64,000 nucleotides of DNA from Chondrosia reniformis (Eukaryota; Porifera; Demospongiae; Chondrillida; Chondrillidae): NCBI GenBank assembly GCA_947172415.1, contig OX359195.1:434001-498000 (forward strand). Direction: 5' to 3'. Positions 37,295 to 50,953 of this stretch are shown here, one piece after another. Below the pieces are notes generated by a model. The model saw only the letters and a list, made by a program, of their open reading frames with translations, did no database searches and was not told where the DNA came from. The first letter of the stretch is position 1. Every line of letters begins with the position of its first letter. The translations under genes were made by a program, and so were the position numbers.

Positions 37295-40200
37295 CTAAAA
37301 AAGTAGTTTAAGTTCATCCAACAAATTAGAGATGAGTACAGGATCTGATCCTTTGGCATTGATCATCACTTGCCTTTCACCCTAACAGAGAGAAAACTCA
37401 ACTATGTAGCTGACTGGTAATATCACACCAAACATTGACACATGAGACAATTGAAACAGCATTTGCAAGGTGTCTCTATTCACTGAGGACAACAGGTTTA
37501 TAAGGTTGACGTATCCGGACCGACAGAGGTCTCGGTCAACATGGAAATTCACTTCAGAAGGTACGCAGAACAGAAAACATAATATCTGTCCAGTTACCAG
37601 AGGAATATGAAGCTTGACTTTAAGGGTGCCTGCAACATATGTCTATTGTATAACCATATTCACAAATCAAAACAATACAGTATATTTTAACAATACAAAT
37701 GAGTAATCTAAAGTACCATTTTCCTATACATTCTACAGGCCTAATAAGGAAGTAAACCTAGTGAGAACAGTGGATAAGGATAGAATATATTTAGTGTTAC
37801 TACTCTACAGTGCACAAATACACAGAATATACTGAGAACTGACCATAGACTTGACCATCAAGCAGATATGATCGTTACTCAAGGACACTCCGTGTAGTGA
37901 AGCACCATCCTGAACTTGCTCTACAATGGCGAGGTGAAGGGTCTTCACAGCCACCGACAGTACACCAGTGAAGTCTTCGATGGACTTTAGCTCCGTCTAC
38001 AGTGAGAGGGTTAGTGGAGAGGGAGGATGGATGTGTGGGTGGAGAGGGAGGATGGATGTGTGGGTGGAGAGGGAGGATGGATGTGTGGGTGGAGAGGGAG
38101 GATGGATGTGTGGGTGGAGAGGGAGGATGGATGTGTGGGTGAAGAGGGAGGATGGATGGGTGGGTGGAGAGGGAGGATGGATGTGTGGGTGAAGAGGGAG
38201 GATGGATGTGTGGGTGAAGAGGGAGGATGGATGTGTGGGTGAAGAGGGAGGATGGATGTGTGGGTGGAGAGTGAGGATGGATGTGTGGGTGGAGAGGGAG
38301 GATGGATGTGTGGGTGGAGAGGGAGGATGGATGTGTGGGTGGAGAGGGAGGATGGTGTGCGGGTGGAGAGGGAGGATGGATGTGTGGGTGGAGAGGGAGG
38401 ATGGATGTGTGGGTGGAGAGGGAGGATGGATGTGTGGGTGGAGAGGGAGGATGGATGTGTGGGTGAAGAGGGAGGATGGATGTGTGGGTGGAGAGGGAGG
38501 ATGGATGTGTGGGTGGAGAGTGAGGATGGATGTGTGGGTGGAGAGGGAGGATGGATGTGTGGGTGGAGAGGGAGGATGGATGTGTGGGTGGAGAGGGAGG
38601 ATGGATGTGTGGGTGGAGAGGGAGGATGGATGTGTGGGTGGAGAGGGAGGATGGTGTGCGGGTGGAGAGGGAGGATGGGTGTGTGGGTGGAGAGGGAGGA
38701 TGGATGTGTGGGTGGAGAGGGAGGATGGATGTGTGGGTGGAGAGGGAGGATGGATGTGTGGGTGGAGAGGGAGGATGGATGTGCCGGTGGAGAGGGAGGA
38801 TGGATGTGCCGGTGGAGAGGGAGGATGGATGTGCCGGTGGAGAGGGAGGATGGATGTGCCGGTGGAGAGCGAGGATGGATGTGCCGGTGGAGAGGGAGGA
38901 TGAATTAAGCATTAAAATGTTTATTGCCATATAAAGCAAAACAGATTCTATTTGTTGAAGACACACTTACGTTTACAGTCTGAGTATCACAGAGCTGGCC
39001 ACCTTGAAGGAGAGATGTGAAATCTTCCCTGTTAAGATATGAAAAAATATTATTAACCTTACGTATTACAAATTGGTTGTATGCTATAGGTATATAAACT
39101 AAAAGACACATTATATGCACATAATACTGATAATTGGAATGTATTTTTCCCGTAGATATGTTTTACATCCAAGGATTCACAGAAGCCTCAAGATAAAGAA
39201 AAGATAAAGACTCCCAGGATCACTGATGAAGGGTGGAATTCCCAGAAACGGCTGTCTGACCCAGTGGAGAAGAAGATGAAAGAAGGGAAAAGAAGGAAGA
39301 AAAGACTCCTGTATCCTCATCCAAAAGCTCTCTTCAGGTTTAGTTCCCCTATAGGCTCTTTTACAGAATAGGCATATAGCATGTAGGAAAATGGAATCTT
39401 AGATTTTTCATACCTGGGACAAGGAACAGTACAGACAACACTAACACACTAGTGTGTACATACCTGGGACAAGGAACAGTACAGACAACACTAACATACT
39501 AGTGTGTACATACCTGGGACAAGGAACAGTACAGACAACACTAACATACTAGTGTGTACATACCTGGGACAAGGAACAGGAGTAACAAAGTTGGACACTT
39601 TGAAAGACAGCTTAAAGTCAATCTTCTCACTTGTGGTACCAGAGTCATTCTAAAGAAAGTCAGTCACTTAATTATCTTCCAAACAGTACAGAAGTAATAT
39701 CATACCATTATACTTGTTATAGGTATGTATGTATGTATATATGTAAATTTGAAGATTTGACAGAAAACTAAAGATGATAGTGGGAAGAAGAAAAAGAGGA
39801 ATTAAGACGTTCGAGAGGCAGACCAAAATTAAAATGGATAAACAATTTTGATGATTAGAGTCAACTTGAATTTATTAAATTCTTTTAATTACAGTTACTG
39901 CAGATCTGTGTTTTAGATGACCCACTGCATAGGATACTGTATCTTGTTGGCCAAATAATTGATATATGTAAATTGTACAAATATTAAACTACATATATAA
40001 TATGTTTGTAAGTACTAAATTTTACCTACTTTAGACATATATGTTAGAGTGCCACGAAGTTTCTGTGAAGTGTTAACACTTTTAATCTTGAACACAAACT
40101 GATACTCATTTGAAGCACCTGGTAAAAGGTGGAATGGAACAGCGACCCCCTCATCGCTACTAGCAACGCCAATCTAACGAGTGACAAGGACAGAGTAACA

Positions 40201-43200
40201 AGTCACATACAGCATTACTGTACACATTATCTTCTTGTACTACTGAGAGCAGACAATCCCAATCTATTCCCCCCCACCCCGAACTCACTCTTTCCAGTCT
40301 TGTGTTAAGAGAGTCAAGAACGTTAAAGTTGAGAGAGAGGAGTGTCATCTCTGTTAGGTTGCTATATATGGAAATAAGGGGGAGGAGTGTCATCTCTGTT
40401 AGGTTGCTATATATGGAAATAAGGGGGAGGAGTGTCATCTCTGTTAGGTTGCTATATATGGAAATAAGGGGGAGGAGTGTCATCTCTGTTAGGTTGCTAT
40501 ATATGGAAATAAGGGGGAGGAGTGTCATCTCTGTTAGGTTGCTATATATGGAAATAAGGGGGAGGAGTGTCATCTCTGTTAGGTTGCTATATATGGAAAT
40601 AAGGGGGAGGAGTGTCATCTCTGTTAGGTTGCTATATATGGAAATAAGGGGGAGGAGTGTCATCTCTGTTAGGTTGCTATATATGGAAATAAGGGGGAGG
40701 AGTGTCATCTCTGTTAGGTTGCTATATATGGAAATAAGGGGGAGGAGTGTCATCTCTGTTAGGTTGCTATATATGGAAATAAGGGGGAGGAGTGTCATCT
40801 CTGTTAGGTTGCTATATATGGAAATAAGGGGGAGGAGTGTCATCTCTGTTAGGTTGCTATATATGGAAATAAGGGGGAGGAGTGTCATCTCTGTTAGGTT
40901 GCTATATATGGAAATAAGGGGGAGGAGTGTCATCTCTGTTAGGTTGCTATATATGGAAATAAGGGGGAGGAGTGTCATCTCTGTTAGGTTGCTATATATG
41001 GAAATAAGGGGGAGGGGTGTCATTTCTGTTAGGTTGCTATATATGGAAATAAGGGGGAGGGGTGTCATCTCTGTTAGGTTGCTATATATGGAAATAAGGG
41101 GGAGGAGTGTCATCTCTGTTAGGTTGCTATATATGGAAATAAGGGGGAGGAGTGTATTGGAATCTGTAAAATAAAGATAGTCAATATGGCAGTCATTGGA
41201 ATCTAAACTATTCTTCCTCTAAAATTTGAAATACAAAATGTTTTAGTAAAGAATATCACATGTTATAAATCTAGCCGACATGCAGTCTTTAAAAGGCTGT
41301 ATCACACTCAGTATTTGTGGTCCATCTCGAAACTGTGGAAAATGGATAAAATCCAGTCTGTTCCTACATTGGCTAAGGAGAGCAGTAATGCAGACCTACC
41401 TGAATATCACGGGCACAAAGAATTGTTCAGAGTTGATCAGATGAGGTCTGACGGTATAAGTCTACATCTTGTCAAGGATCACATATGGACAACACTAGCA
41501 TGTAATTTGACAAAGTCACAAGTTCAGAGCATTATTAAGCATTGTATTGAAATAAATACCCAAATTGTCCACTTGAAACAGCAAGAACTATTATATATAT
41601 ATATGTACATAGCTAATAACATAGAGTGTGTAAGGTAACGTACATAACTAACACACCAAGGGTTGACATTACGCAATCACCTATGAACATGTATAGAGGA
41701 TACCATTCTAATGCATTGATCCTCTGCCAGTAACTGGTACACTGTAGCTTTTGGCTAGAGGAAGAGAGAAAATTGACATTTCAGTAATTATTAACATTTC
41801 AACTAAGAACCAAACTCTTCAAATATGATACACATACGTATATACTATATATTGGGAATTGAATGTCTAAAGAATGTAAGATTATAAGTTGTGCATCCAT
41901 AATCTTTTGACACCTTAGTAATTCCGCATACTAGTCCATACACCTTACATTTCATCTTTCATTCTTTTGACCACAATGTTTTACGTATATCTGTAATTAT
42001 TTGCAATCTACTTCCTTGGCATTTGATAAATGATATTATATGGTACATATGAATATCATATTGGTGAACTTTGACCTATCAGTACTGACCTCTGCTGCTG
42101 CTGGTCCCATTAGATCCATTTCCCCAGGCTCTTCCTGTTGTGCAATAGATGGTTCCTCAGCATCAGGTTCATCTCTCTTCTTTTTACCTTTCTTGGACTT
42201 TGAACCCTAAATATACCACAGGAAGTTGAGGTCTTAATGATCTCAAATGATCTCAGTGAATCTTTATGACATTCAAAGATATCCCTACCTTGCTCTTTTT
42301 TCCTTTCTTGGCGTTCTTCTCAGTGTCCTCTTTGACAGTGACAGCTGCTGATTCCTTCTTCTCCTTCTTGGGAGGGGTAGAGTTCTGTGGGGCAGAGGTG
42401 GCGGGGCTTGAGAGCCAAAAGTCCAGATCATCTAAATTGCCTTCTTCCTTATTTTCACCTCCTGTTGCTATGGTTACATAATAAAAGCCTCATGATGGTC
42501 ACATGATTGTGGTGAATGAGAGGGATGCATAGGAAAGACTGGAGATAAACAATGAAGCAAGCTTTAGAGAATTAATATGAGAAGTATTGGCTAAGCCTAA
42601 AATAAAAGGTCACTTGAAAGGTCAAATAATTATTACTTGCTCCTAATTAAGACCTTCTTCCTCATATTCAAAGTTTACTTAAAAAAGACAAAAAAGACTT
42701 CCCAGGATCACTGATGAAGGGTGGAAATCCCAGAAACAGCTGTCTGACCCAGTGGAGAAGAAGATGATAGAGAGGAAAAGAAGAAAGAAAAGACTCCTGT
42801 ATCTTCATCCAAAGCTCTCTTCAGGTTTAGTTCCCCTATAGGTTTTTTTTACAGAATAGGCACAGTATGTAGGAAAATGGTGTATTAGATTTTTCATGTG
42901 TGTCCATTCTATGTTGAAGGAAGGTGTTTAGTGTATTAGGTATATGTGGTGTACCTTCAGGTGTCGCTTGGAGTTCCTTTTCTTCTTCTTCTTCCTCCAC
43001 CATCTCCACCAGAGAACTGTTCGTGGTCTCACTCTTTGCAGCTTTATCTTTTTTACTTTTCTTTTTACTCTTTCCCTCCTTTTCCTTTGTCTTCTTCTTG
43101 GATGAAACAGGCTCTTCAACCTCTGCTTCTTCTTCGGCCTAATAACAGCAAAGCAGCACTAATGAGCTAGCTTATATGCAGGTATATCATAGTTCTAGAC

Positions 43201-46200
43201 AAATTAAGGGAAATTGTGTTTCAAAGAATATTCTAGTTAATCAGAAAATGTAGTAAGTACTCTTTAACAATTCATAAAATTATTCTAAAATAGAAAGAAA
43301 TGATTTCCATCTCACATGCTTTTTTTTCTTCTTCTTCTTCTTCTTCTTCTCCTTTGAGTCTTCATCTTCAAGCTTCAAACCAGCTGTCTCAGGTACCACA
43401 CGATGTTTGGGCACGGGAAGAATTTCATCATCTCTCAAAGGCCTTCAGAGATAATAAAACCACAATGATACAGGAGCAGGAAGTGTTGAGAAGAATGGAA
43501 CAACTTAAAACACTTTCTTAATTGCTTCCTGTTGCTAGCCTGTCTGTTACAGTTATTATTGAGGACTGGTAATAATTGATAATGTATAGTCGCATTCAGA
43601 AACCAGGAAGTGATCTGCAAGGTATGCATTTTATCCTTCCTAATTAGTTTATGAGCTATAACTCTAAATAATCCAGCTTCCTGCATAGTTATATACTATA
43701 TGTAAGCAACTAAATATTAGTTACTTAATGCCATAATTCCAGCAAGACCAGAGGTGTGATCACTTAACTATTAGTACACTAACTCTGTCAAGGACCATTC
43801 ACTACATAAGATTAGAACCTAACCACCATTTTATACTCCTGAATCAATTAAGACCATTAGAGCTTTCCATCAATCATTACTACAAAACACACGACTACTT
43901 CTGCAACAAAAATTGGTTCATTGCAAACAAGTACATACATGTAAAACTCATAAATCATTAATACTAGAAGTACCAAATTTCACAATAATAAAAGGATTAG
44001 GAACTTTTTGAGTGCCTAGAGTTGAGTTTTGTTAAGTTTCGACCCTGGGGGTCCGTTTGACTAAAGTTTAACAACAAAACTAGTGGAAGCATGAACCATC
44101 CAAGAGATAAGTTTGAGGCAGTTAGAAGGAATCCTTATTTCGTCAATAAAAGGATTCTTATAACAAAATGCTACATCATTAAAATAGTTCTGCCTAGTAG
44201 CTAATAATGAAGGACATCACACTTCTGTTATACATTACGCTCACTCTGACAAATCAATGTTTAACTTTCTGTGGGCCTCATCAAGTGCATCATTGGTAGG
44301 GTTTTCCTCCTCTTCACTGGACCCGCCCACAGCACCCTCTGGCATTTCCTCCTTTGCTACCATGACAACAGGTCTTGCAATCTCCTCTTCTTCCTTTTCC
44401 TGTTTTCGCCCTATAAATAATATAGTAACATTAAAATTTAATAGTCAATAAATACAGATAATAAAATATAAAACAATCTGATTTTAAAGTTTTACTATAA
44501 GATAATGTATTTCTACCTTTTACTCAAACAGACATGTGTACAACAGGTCAGGATGGTACCTTTTCCTTTTTTCCCTTTTTTCCCTTTCTTTGCTTTCTTT
44601 CCCTTCTCCTTTGCGTCATCTACAAACAGAAAGAAATATCAGAGAGTACATACTGGCAGTGGATCATTCTGATAGCTAATGACATGTTTAGAACAGCAAA
44701 TCAAGTTCTAATTCAGGAGATATTGTATTCCAATGGAAACTATAGAGACGTATGCTAAACCAGATTTCAAGAATGATTCAACTAAAATTACACTATCTAA
44801 AGGACCTCTTACAACTCAGCAGTTCAAGGAATGAGTTATACGTGGCTGGAGAGTATCTACATGTAATCCTACGCTTGGATACAGAAACTGAATGATTTGG
44901 CCTAAAAGCCTTCACATCAGTAATCAAGTAGCTGATGTTCAAAAATAATCCATTTTCTACTAAAAACACAACATATTCCTTTACTATTCATATAATCCAC
45001 TCACCAATTACAAGTGAGAGACTTCCGAGATTCACTTTTGAAATGGGAATGGAATCAGTAGCTTCTCCTACCTCTGGGCTATCCTATTAAACAGTTACCA
45101 CACATAGGAACAAATATAATTTCAGTCACTAACAACTAAATGAAGTTAGAGGTTAATCTACACTTCTAATTGACATTTTAGCTATTCTACAAAAATCAAA
45201 ATGGCTTCCAGGAAGTGACAGTAAATATGATTGTCAGCACATACTTTGTTCTTTCTGGTTCCTGAAGTCATTGGGAGATAATGAGGATTGCTGGCTCTTT
45301 CCACCTCCCTCTGCTTTCTCATCTAAGAGAAAAAAGACACAAGAATAATCTAACACACCATTTTTCAACATGCTACATCTACTTTAGAATAAACTGAAAA
45401 ACTAAACCTAGTGAGAGCTTTGGGGGAGGATACAAGAATCTTCTCCTTCTCCTTCTCTTCTTCTCCACTCTAAGCATGTTGTCATGGATACAAAGACAGC
45501 CATTAGAGTACTCTATAGGTATTCCATCTCAAGTGTCAACCTCCTGCTTATCATCAATTTGCAATTCTTCTGATTCTACTCATGACTTTTAGTTCTAGCT
45601 CTTACCCTCTCCATCTCCTCTCCCACCCCCTCCATCTCCTCTCTTACCCTCTCCATCTCCTCTCTTACCCCCTCCATCTCCTCTCTTACCCCCTCCATCT
45701 CCTCTCTTACCCCCTCCATCTCCTCTCTTACCCCCTCCATCTCCTCTCTTACCCCCTCCATCTCCTCTCTTACCCCCTCCATCTCCTCTCTTACCCTCTC
45801 CATCCCCTCTCTTACCCCCTCCATCTCCTCTCTTACCCCCTCAATCTCCTCTCTTACCCCCTCCATCTCCTCTCTTACCCCCTCCATCTCCTCTCTTACC
45901 CTCTCCATCTCCTCTCTTACCCTCTCCATCTCCTCTCTTACCCACTCCATCTCCTCTCTTACCCCCTCCATCTCCTCTCTTACCCCCTCCATCTCCTCTC
46001 TTACCCCCTCCATCTCCTCTCTTACCCCCTCCATCTCCTCTCTTACCCCCTCCATCTCCTCTCTTACCCTCTCCATCTCCTCTCTTACCCCCTCCATCTC
46101 CTCTCTTACCCTCTCCATCTCCTCTCTTACCCCCTCCATCTCCTCTCTTACCCCCTCCATCTCCTCTCTTACCCTCTCCATCTCCTCTCTTACCCCCTCC

Positions 46201-49200
46201 ACCTCCTCTCATACCCTCTCCATCTCCTCTCTTACCCCCTCAATCTCCTCTCTTACCCTCTCCATCTCCTCTCTTACCCTCTCCACCTCCTCTCATACCC
46301 TCTCCATCTCCTCTCTTACCCCCTCCACCTCCTCTCATACCCTCTCCATCTCCTCTCTTACCCCCTCCATCTCCTCTCTTACCCCCTCCATCTCCTCTCT
46401 TACCCCCTCCATCTCCTCTCTTATCCTCTCCATCTCCTCTCTTACCCTCTCCATCTCCTCCTGTTCCTCCTTCTCTTCCTTCTTGCTCTTCTTCTTGTAA
46501 GTCTTCTCAATGCCTCCATTGTAACTGCTATCCTTACCAGACACAAAGGAGAAGGAATCCCCCAGACTGAAGTCTTCATCCTTGTCACTCTCATCAAGCG
46601 GCTCGTTGATCCATTTATCCAAATCGAGACTATAAACAGATAAGCACAATTGAAATTATCTTTTGAAAGGATCATCTTTTGACTTTTAGAGCATCTACAG
46701 ATGCAGTCTCTTCTTGGTTGAGATGTTTCAACCCTACTCTAAAAGTCGTAAGAAGATCCTTTCAAAAGATAAGTTCGATGCAGTTAGAAATCCTTATTCT
46801 ACAATTGAAAGTACTCAGTATACTAAGGTATTAAAATGTAGTGGGCGTGGCAAGGCTGAGGTGTAAGGGGCGTGGCAGGACCCACCCATCTGGTACTGGA
46901 ACTTTCTTTTGAGCTTTTGGTGCAACTGGATTGAGCTCCCCGGCAAACAGAGCGGCCAAATCTCCACTCACACTGGCACCTTTTATATGCAAACATACAC
47001 AGTACTATTGTATAATATACATAGTACGTATATATTTATAGTACGTACATACATACATAGATATAATAGTATATACTATAATGTACTAATAAGGAGTCTA
47101 TTACACTAAGCCTGTGCAAAGGCTATGATTGCATGTGAATAATTACTGGAAGGTATTACGCCAACCAGCCAAGTCACCACAGTCTTATCTTGGTTGGTGA
47201 ACTGAAGTCTTTTCAAAAGGCAGCACAAGATATAAGACAATAAGATTTTGGTCACTACTGGTAGTACTACTGGTTTGGCACAATAATTACTTTTCTTAGT
47301 ATAATTACAATATACATTACTTACATTTGAAAAGCAAAAATCATCATTGGAAAGTGATATTAAATTGGCAACCAGTGATCGCCTCCCAGTCAATCACTGG
47401 TTGCCATTTTAATAGGACTTCTGTCCCCCAGCTAATATTAGACTTCGTCACTTGGTTGGTTGGCGCAATACTTTCCAGTGACTATTTTTGTTTATCTTCA
47501 CAGCCTTTGCACAGGCCAAGTGCAATTAACTCCCTTTATTCACATTACGTACATATATACATAAATACATGCAAGATCAAGAAAAAGACAAAGATTCCAG
47601 GGGTCATTGATTCTTCATGCAGTCAACTACGAATATACATGAAGACTGTGAGTTAAAAGTATGATTAAGATGAAGGAGGCGTGGCAGGACCCACCCACAA
47701 GGTAGAGGCTGATAGTAAAAGAAATACTAACTATTCTTCATACGTACCTTTGCCTTGCAGTTTAACGATGTACTTCATCAGCTGCAGAATACAACATGCC
47801 TGGAGAAACAGGAAGTGGATCAAAGGAGAATGACATTAAAAACAGGAAGTGGATGCAAACTTACTCTTTCCTGTACTTCCAGATCTCCACTTTGTACAAA
47901 AGCTGGAAGCTTGTCCACCAACATTCCTCCGACCTCCTCAATGGTCTCCTGGGCACCCTGGGAAGGGAATTCATACACATGGCATGCTCAGCTTACTATA
48001 TAAATACTACCAGTCGAAACATGATGTAATGTCACCAGTTAAATGTTCTGTGGTGATTAGGTGTAAGGACACAAATGTACCTGAGATTCAGCTTGTACAA
48101 GAATGCTAGCGTACAACTTGAGTATGTTTTGCACAAACACTGCTTGAATGTGGCCGGGGAGAGAAGTGACCTTCGGGTTCAGCATTACGTCCAGGACCTC
48201 CCTTGGGTCCGACAGGTATCTACAGTGTCAGGTCATAGGAAGTGAACAGTGTGTTCACATGTGTCTATTAAGTACCACGTTGCCATAGCAACAAGCTGCT
48301 AATGAGGAAATTTTCATGAATTCATATAGTCATCACATCTGGGCTATAACTATTACATATACAAACTGTTCATAACTACATATATCAGAGAGTACGGTTG
48401 GCCAAAAAAATGGCCTCCCTATCAGACAACTCACTCAGAGAACTCTCCCACTACCCAGGCTGCAGCATAGAGAACTTCACATATTCCATCTTTGCTGGTC
48501 TTTGAGAGAAAGAGGTGGGTGTTGTCCAAAATAGTGACCATTTGCTTGACACTAAACTGGCGGACATCTTTGACCCTGATTGTGACATCCAGTATTTGAG
48601 AGGCTAACAACTTCCCATGTGTAGTGCCTTCAAACTTGGTCATACCAACCAGCACTGTGATGTACCTGTGGGCGGGGATGGGCGGGGATGGGATGGGATG
48701 GGATAGGTGGGCAGGTGTGTGGGTGTGTGGTGGATGGGTGTGTGTGGGTGTGTGTGTGTGTTGGATGGATGGATGGGGATGGATGGATGGATGGGGATGG
48801 ATGGATGGGGATGGATGGGTGGATGGATGGATGGATGGATGGATGGATGGATGGATGGATGGATGGATGGATGGGGATGGGTGGATGGATGGGTGGATGG
48901 ATGGGTGGATGGATGGATGGATGGATGGATGGATGGATGGATGGATGGATGGATGGATGGATGGATGGATGGATGGATGGATGGATGGATGGATGGATGG
49001 ATGGATGGATGGATGGATGGTGTAACGATGGCTTACCATTCAAAGTCAGTGATGTACTGATAATTTGATTGACGACACATGGAAATGACCTTTGAAATCA
49101 CCTCATCACGATAATCTAGACCACAACGTGATAGATAAGATGTGACACTTAATAGTGACACGGAGTAATGACAAGTGACACAGAGTAGTGACATGTGACA

Positions 49201-50953
49201 CAGAGTAGTGACATGTGACACTGAGTAGTGACATGTGACATGGAGTAGTGACAAGTGACACTGAGTAGTGTGACACTTACAAGTGCTCTCGCTCTCCTCG
49301 ATGTGTGTAACCAATCGCTTTACAATCTCCACCAGGTTCTTCTTGGTTACCATGCCAACAATGAGGTCCAAAGCTCTCAACCTTATTGAGTCATCGTGGC
49401 TGTCCAGACACTCCATTACCAGATCCCTAGGGTTGAGGGATTTATTGGTATGAATGGCATAAATGTGTTCAGTGCAGAAAAATGAAAACAAAATGGCTGC
49501 CTCACTTGAGCTGAAGGAGAGCTTTGGGCTGGTGTGGGAGAATCTTGGACATGGCAAGCAATCCCAGGTACCTCACTGCACAAAAAATTGCAACTAATAC
49601 ATTGCATATTTATATTAATCTAACACATTGGATATTTATATTAATCTAACACATTGGATATGTATAATATTGGATATTTATATTAATCTAATATATTGGA
49701 TATGTACATCTTTGAAGAATACAATATATGTACATGTGCTACATACAGAGAGAATAAAATGAAGTGAGTGCATGATTGGACTTGGAAGAGCTGCTCACAG
49801 TTCTGATCCGAGTCTTCTACAAACAGTCTCAGCTTGGAGACACAGAGTTGCATAAGATTGACATTCTTTGGCATTCCAGAGATGACAGTCATCACACACT
49901 CGAAGAGAAGGGACATTGCTGAGGTCGAGTGGATGAGGGTCGTTAGGGGGTCCTGAAGCTTCTTAGCCAGTCTGGGCTCCAGTGGAGTGATAGCTCCAAA
50001 CTGATCGAGGGAGGGTAAGAGAGGTGGAGAGGGAGGGTAAGAGAGGTGGAGAGGGAGGGTAAGAGAGGTGGAGAGGGAGGGTAAGAGAGGTGGAGAGGGA
50101 GGGTAAGAGAGGTGGAGAGGGAGGGTAAGAGATGTGGAGAGGGAGGGTAAGAGATGTGGAGAGGGAGGGTAAGAGAGGTGGAGAGGGAGGGTAAGAGAGG
50201 TGGAGAGGGAGGGTAAGAGATGTGGAGAGGGAGGGTAAGAGAGGTGGAGAGGGAGGGTAAGAGAGGTGGAGAGGGAGGGTAAGAGAGGTGGAGAGGGAGG
50301 GGACAGAGAGGTGGAGAGGGAGGGTAAGAGAGGTGGAGAGGGAGGGTAAGAGAGGTGGAGAGGGAGGGTAAGAGAGGTGGAGAGGGAGGGTAAGAGAGGT
50401 GGAGAGGGAGGGTAAGAGATGTGGAGAGGGAGGGTAAGAGAGGTGGAGAGGGAGGGTAAGAGAGGTGGAGAGGGAGGGTAAGAGAGGTGGAGAGGGAGGG
50501 TAAGAGATGTGGAGAGGGAGGGTAAGAGAGGTGGAGAGGGAGGGTAAGAGAGGTGGAGAGGGAGGGGTCAGAGAGGTGGAGAGGGAGGGTAAGAGAGGTG
50601 GAGAGGGAGGGGTCAGAGAGGACTATTTCATGCATGGAGTTCTCCACTCACTAGTTTGATGATTTTAATAAGCATCCAGTTATTATTGGAGTCTTGCATA
50701 ATCTTGAAGAGAGTTGGAGCGAGAGAAATATAGTTTTTCGGGTTCTTCCTAGCAAGCTCACAGATGACACTAACGGCCGCACACTGAACTGAAGAGTCAG
50801 GATCTTCTATCTTTTCCTAAAATCAAACAGTCGAGGATACATTACTTTGAAAACAAGAGAGGTTGACTGCAGCCGGAATAGGAGAGTCCTTCAAAACACA
50901 CATATACACACACACACATACACACACACACACACACATACACACACATACAC

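Follow-up and report, generated by a model that had tools for sequence, protein, structure and literature searches.

In the sponge Chondrosia reniformis, a 45-bp minisatellite within a gene that appears to encode the AP-3 delta subunit, a vesicle-coat protein, carries 18 tandem copies of a splice acceptor together with the first bases of the exon that follows. Judging from the homology of the joined exons and from the precedent of similar arrays in amphioxus, this array is probably removed as part of the intron, with the 3'-most acceptor mainly used and normal AP-3 delta made.

The array is located in the window, that is, the whole stretch of 64,000 nt that was analyzed (G000:C7:434001-498000), which belongs to an assembly of 117,379,552 bases in 15 contigs. 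TRF detected one array at 40337-41155 of the window, with a period of 45, 18.2 copies, a match of 99% and a score of 1617. On the minus strand, the motif TATATAG occurs 18 times at a spacing of exactly 45 nt, with the G of AG at plus-strand positions 41127 to 40362. The 17 units between successive acceptors include 15 identical ones; units 2 and 3, counted from the 5' side, deviate. Each unit carries a pyrimidine tract and the TATATAG acceptor and repeats the first 25 bases of the exon; within the unit as written, CAACCTAACAGAGATGACACTCCTCCCCCTTATTTCCATATATAG, the order is exon-start bases, pyrimidine tract, AG. The array extends into the acceptor-side exon (40361-40289), 25 of whose 73 bases lie inside it, and its length of 819 nt (18 × 45 + 9) spans exactly from one copy of ACACTCCTC to the other. 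The sequence-only reading had described about 18 copies of a 45-bp unit multiplying the acceptor TATATAG and the exon-start bases, a description borne out by TRF and by the exact spacing of the 18 motifs. The extent that it gave, 40289-41165, does contain the array but also takes in the remaining exonic bases and roughly 10 bases of 5' flank. The tandem consensus unit of the array contains no GT dinucleotide, so that the copies cannot be separate small exons, and a donor or exon-creating role of the units was dismissed on this ground. Recursive splicing (AG/GT) at the array was likewise rejected, because AGGT is absent.

Table 1. Features of the putative AP-3 delta gene around the acceptor array, and further arrays in the same gene (window positions; a slash marks the exon-intron boundary).
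Feature	Position	Strand	Basis or remarks
Minisatellite, 45 bp × 18.2, unit CAACCTAACAGAGATGACACTCCTCCCCCTTATTTCCATATATAG	40337..41155	-	TRF and acceptor spacing
Intron-side (5') copy of the 9-bp direct repeat ACACTCCTC bounding the array	41147..41155	-	Array flank sequence
Exon-side (3') copy of the 9-bp direct repeat ACACTCCTC	40337..40345	-	Array flank sequence
3'-most TATATAG, acceptor expected in use; exon from 40361	40362..40368	-	Homology across the junction
Acceptor-like TTTATTTTACAG just upstream of the array; would-be exon start 41163	41164..41175	-	Score 5.4
Exon before the array; ends AG, donor AG/GTAGGT, phase 2	41400..41461	-	Joined product gapless against 9rtx_d
Exon after the array (27 in the numbering of the sequence-only reading), 73 nt, donor GTGAGT	40289..40361	-	9rtx_d alignment
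Next exon, IGVASSDEG...LTYMSK	40030..40173	-	9rtx_d alignment
Following exon, NDSGTTSEK...VPCP + AG, donor CAG/GTATGT	39564..39649	-	9rtx_d alignment
Junction sequence: preceding exon ...GTGATATTCAG, then CAACCTAACAGAGATGACACTCCTC, then TCTCTCAACTTT (if the 3'-most copy is used) or CCCCTTATTTCC (if an upstream copy is used)			
Donor-multiplying array, 50 bp × 3.4	39409..39579	-	CAG/GTATG four times, 16 exonic bases inside; out of frame
Intronic array, 25 bp × 35.6, ending 18 nt before the exon starting 37996	38014..38902	-	
Intronic array, 22 bp × 27.8, pyrimidine-rich on the gene strand, ending 7 nt before the exon starting 50000	50007..50621	-	

The gene lies on the minus strand, with its exons between about 52991 and 37844. 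Composites of the gene's other exons matched PF01602 (Adaptin_N, E=2.7e-22) and PF06375 (AP3D1, E=1e-6; 29.4 bits, just above the cut-off of 28.2), and the number of Pfam families found on the exons flanking the array was 0. Among solved structures, the AP-3 delta chains 9rtx_d and 9c58_D in the PDB match the gene, with both gene ends covered, and the exons flanking the array match 9rtx_d. The adaptin N-terminal domain, the AP3D1 domain and the match to a solved chain are thus all present, in support of the earlier call of the gene as AP3D1 / AP-3 delta. When five exons were joined across four junctions, including the one at the array, with zero units retained, the product gave a gapless alignment of 132 residues with 9rtx_d (E=5.1e-29). 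This gapless alignment indicates that the conserved message would use the 3'-most acceptor, with the array leaving as intron, and the genuine intron-exon boundary would, by homology, be the last array copy. On the same evidence, the 45-bp unit was set aside as a coding repeat of the normal protein. No retrocopy of the used junction was found by a protein search of the genome, which gave four matches among the best candidates scored, all four of them the gene's own exons.

Minisatellites that duplicate an intron-exon boundary have been described in amphioxus as "mirage" minisatellites, in the Adh, globin and TnC genes, and PGBD5 has been likened to them (PMC3087553, PMC3902484). The sponge array is of this known but rarely described kind: its tandem units lie across the boundary (the acceptor and 25 exonic bases), they carry AG signals (18 TATATAG motifs at 45-base spacing), and the genuine boundary, placed by homology only, coincides with the edge of the array that faces the exon. 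In the amphioxus mirages (Adh3, BflGb6/BflGb9, TnC), as in the sponge, the boundary is present in tandem (there at the 3' or the 5' end of the intron), many units carry AG or GT, and normal protein requires removal of the array, which for the sponge is deduced from homology. In BflGb6, units of 150-160 bp that combine the 3' end of an intron with the 5' part of exon 2 occur 6 times in one haplotype and 3 times in another, and the Adh3 units measure 10-72 bp (PMC3087553), whereas the sponge array has 18 units of 45 bp. Furthermore, all sponge copies are in frame and stop-free, which is not reported for amphioxus in the excerpts of PMC3087553 and PMC3902484 used here. Amphioxus mirages differ in length between haplotypes, and that of Adh3 shows somatic instability; the sponge is represented by one haplotype, in which the near-identity of the units is consistent with a recent expansion. 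As to splicing, Adh3 data and globin RT-PCR suggest that mirages leave regular splicing undisturbed (PMC3087553), and, in the portions of PMC3902484 drawn on here, Adh and TnC mirages yield no aberrant mRNAs. Many mirage units carry AG or GT signals that could act as cryptic sites, and mirages have been proposed as a route to new introns (PMC3087553). In one study, duplicated beta-globin 3' splice sites were spliced very inefficiently and exclusively at the distal site, and duplication of the 3' splice site allows a second U2AF35 molecule to bind the transcript (PMC5389562). No earlier report of a boundary-spanning minisatellite in a sponge was found in the open-access literature, which was searched narrowly for sponges.

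Joining the preceding exon to each acceptor in turn gave 0 stops and an identical downstream frame in 18 of 18 cases, with intron lengths from 273 nt for the first acceptor to 1038 nt for the 3'-most one. The assertion that the unit is 15 codons long and stop-free, and that any copy keeps the frame, is therefore correct. This in-frame, stop-free state is nevertheless unremarkable: the repeated unit is open in two of its six frames, and 12 of 18 3' intron ends of the gene were stop-free when placed in the position of the array unit. Combined with the 1 in 3 chance that the period is a multiple of three, the latter fraction gives a probability of about 0.22 (roughly 1 in 5) for an in-frame, stop-free array, and the open frame was discarded as a sign of selection. 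In its period (a multiple of three) and its open frame the array resembles coding minisatellites; it differs from them in that 25 of the 45 unit bases are exonic in the last copy, and in that a homolog without the repeat aligns gaplessly. Splicing to the TTTATTTTACAG site just upstream of the array would lead to a stop at the first TATATAG.

The acceptors themselves were compared using a model based on 18 acceptors elsewhere in the AP-3 delta gene that were picked by eye. The array acceptors score 4.7, within the leave-one-out range of the 18 model acceptors (-6.0 to 12.0), and the TTTATTTTACAG site scores slightly higher (5.4). The identical upstream bases shared with acceptor 18 number from 69 to 609 for acceptors 2 and 5-17, and from 24 to 29 for acceptors 1, 3 and 4; downstream, 25 identical bases are common to acceptor 18 and 15 of the 17 others. 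Local sequence hardly separates acceptor 18 from the other copies, which differ in their distance to the two donors and in the sequence past the first 25 exon bases. Therefore, the choice among them must rest on distance or on sequence deeper in the exon. The unit also contains CTAAC, a word that resembles the branch-point consensus. However, CTAAC is found at just one of the 18 other acceptors of the gene, and a YTRAY word is missing from the 58 scanned bases at 11 of these 18, so that little weight was given to it.

The array may have originated from a 45-bp stretch flanked by ACACTCCTC both in the pyrimidine tract of the intron and in the exon; slippage or unequal exchange would have duplicated this stretch, which then expanded to 18 units. 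The flanking repeat is the basis for proposing slippage, and a short direct repeat at one boundary would be enough to start the duplication. The identity of 15 of the 17 units, together with the position of the variants near the 5' side, suggests that the rest of the array expanded recently. As for the transcript, splicing would occur mainly to the acceptor at 40362, since only this copy opens the complete 73-nt exon with a donor nearby, and the 17 upstream acceptors would be removed within the intron. Splicing factors probably bind the pyrimidine tracts and AGs of these upstream copies, which nevertheless lose out. If an upstream copy were used now and then, the protein would gain 15 residues for each unit and meet no premature stop; an array of which every copy is in frame and stop-free should be easier to tolerate. 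A counterpoint to the choice of the 3'-most acceptor is that the first acceptor would give the shorter intron (273 vs. 1038 nt), which could favor a 5' copy.

A human minisatellite is said, going by the title of a 1995 report by Turri, to supply multiple splice donor sites to a transcript, reportedly 6-16. Like the sponge array, it would multiply the splice sites of one gene, but these are donors, as against acceptors in the sponge. This case, known from its title, is among the observations that speak for appreciable use of several of the 18 acceptors, which would produce a ladder of isoforms with 0 to 17 extra 15-residue units in the AP-3 delta appendage, varying with allele length. None of the 18 products has a stop or leaves the frame, most acceptors are nearly alike in their local sequence, the repeated splice signals of the amphioxus mirages could serve as cryptic sites (PMC3087553), and the binding of a second U2AF35 molecule that becomes possible when a 3' splice site is duplicated (PMC5389562) is in line with such use. 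Yet the amphioxus mirages are described, in the excerpts of PMC3087553 and PMC3902484 used here, as free of disturbed splicing or aberrant mRNAs, the insert would be placed within the region that is gapless against 9rtx_d, and the in-frame status would be expected by chance about as often as calculated above. Such a ladder is unlikely, also as the main product. The broader proposition that many of the 18 acceptors are used, with heritable copy number setting the range of 0 to 17 inserts, and that boundary-spanning arrays are a genome-wide standing source of such variation, appears decidedly unlikely. Variation of the copy number between individuals, by itself, is likely, by analogy with the amphioxus haplotypes and in view of the near-identity of the units.

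Should the first acceptor (exon from 41126) be used as a rule, the exon would measure 838 nt and the 17 extra units would add 255 residues as a coding minisatellite. The intron of 273 nt is the shortest among those of the array acceptors, this acceptor is transcribed first, the frame is open throughout the array, and likely coding minisatellites exist elsewhere in the genome (e.g., L024:9514-9996). Nevertheless, 255 residues, with 7 of 15 per unit being L, I or M, would interrupt a conserved region that, in their absence, aligns with no gap, and acceptor 1 has unique upstream sequence with no preceding unit (29 upstream bases in common with acceptor 18); constitutive use of this site seems highly unlikely. 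An even smaller chance is given to a harmful array that diverts splicing, including to TTTTACAG (exon start 41163, stop), in an allele that makes little AP-3 delta. The score of that site, which exceeds that of the array acceptors, and the stops in its product fit this idea, whereas the five joined exons are open and conserved, and the precedents are reported as spliced normally in the excerpts of PMC3087553 and PMC3902484. Tandem arrays are readily miscounted in assemblies. An artefactual copy number is, however, practically negligible as an explanation here: the array of 819 bp is short compared with HiFi reads of about 12.9 kb, and the 45-bp periodicity and both flanks of the array are clean. 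For the Chondrosia reniformis genome, these data comprise 10.31 Gb in 0.80 million reads, with a QV of 69.8 (PMC12181767).

The AP-3 delta gene contains a second array that spans a boundary, in this case a donor (39409-39579). The last exon bases defined by its four donors are 39564, 39514, 39464 and 39414, and the gapless protein uses the first of the four; donors 3 and 4 lead to stops, and donor 2 causes a frameshift, with no stop within the stretch translated. The two arrays appear to mirror each other, as both would give the conserved protein when the array leaves as intron. A further array in the gene (45599-46460, 21 bp × 41) has a gene-strand (minus) unit that reads EEMEGVR, mostly with GTAAGAG, in an open frame that continues past a phase-1 donor. 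It was rejected as a donor multiplier, because its donors are in phase 0, whereas the next acceptors (by eye) are in phase 1, and a phase-1 CTG/GTAAGG lies 78 nt before; it is treated here as intronic, a provisional assignment. Its minus-strand unit and the plus-strand unit of the array at 50007-50621 share GGGTAAGAGAGG, so that the two are in opposite orientation.

In 264 kb of the genome, including the window, there are 88 non-overlapping arrays with a period of at least 10, and 10 of them were read in context, in addition to the 45-bp array itself and the edges of three others. The sample of WD40 genes comprised 17 arrays in 20 loci (62,238 bases), of which 7 were read in context. One WD40 gene (L031:1287-1494; WD40 E=2.2e-10) has an array of 32 bp × 6.5 with a 100% match that starts from the last two exon bases and presents AG/GTACTG seven times. 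Boundary-spanning arrays thus recur in this genome, with the second one in the AP-3 delta gene and the one in the WD40 gene. A probable fourth is found at L006:2534-2602 (34 bp × 2.2), where an acceptor is duplicated (TTTGTAG, TTTGCAG) along with 13 exon bases and the upstream copy leads to a stop; for this gene, searches of Pfam (up to E=0.1) and of the PDB (up to E=0.01) were both without a match. Further arrays end just short of a splice site (L027, L035, L036). Where an intron barely exceeds its array, as in L035, abutting a splice site is forced, and spanning is the informative case. An automatic scan of 76 arrays with a small codon model returned 6 rows in 5 arrays (L007, L011, L018, L024 and 45599-46460) but did not recover the two arrays already known in the AP-3 delta gene (40337-41155 and 39409-39579); therefore, no rate of boundary-spanning arrays is claimed.

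With three homology-supported cases in a small sample, two in the AP-3 delta gene and one in a WD40 gene, boundary-duplicating minisatellites are extended from amphioxus to a sponge, which bears on intron growth and on the possible origin of new introns. The acceptor array also constitutes a natural test of acceptor choice, in which one donor faces 18 acceptors, mostly with long identical upstream sequences and 25 identical downstream bases. The winning copy would separate "first usable AG" from "exon definition" without engineering, and published RNA-seq could decide between them.

Other repeats were noted in passing. Two arrays are likely coding minisatellites: one at L024:9514-9996, where PSGTTPA repeats and a TPR-encoding stretch lie in one open frame, and one at L017:1920-2283, a 30-bp repeat encoding NKDTAGNTDV. 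A long, diverged 13-bp satellite, AACTAGTACATAC, fills much of each of four 10-kb stretches (L008, L014, L018 and L023) on the contigs C1 to C4, all different. Finally, G000:C14:0.59-1.04 Mb holds a cluster of many equal-scoring WD40 matches, possibly a recent expansion.
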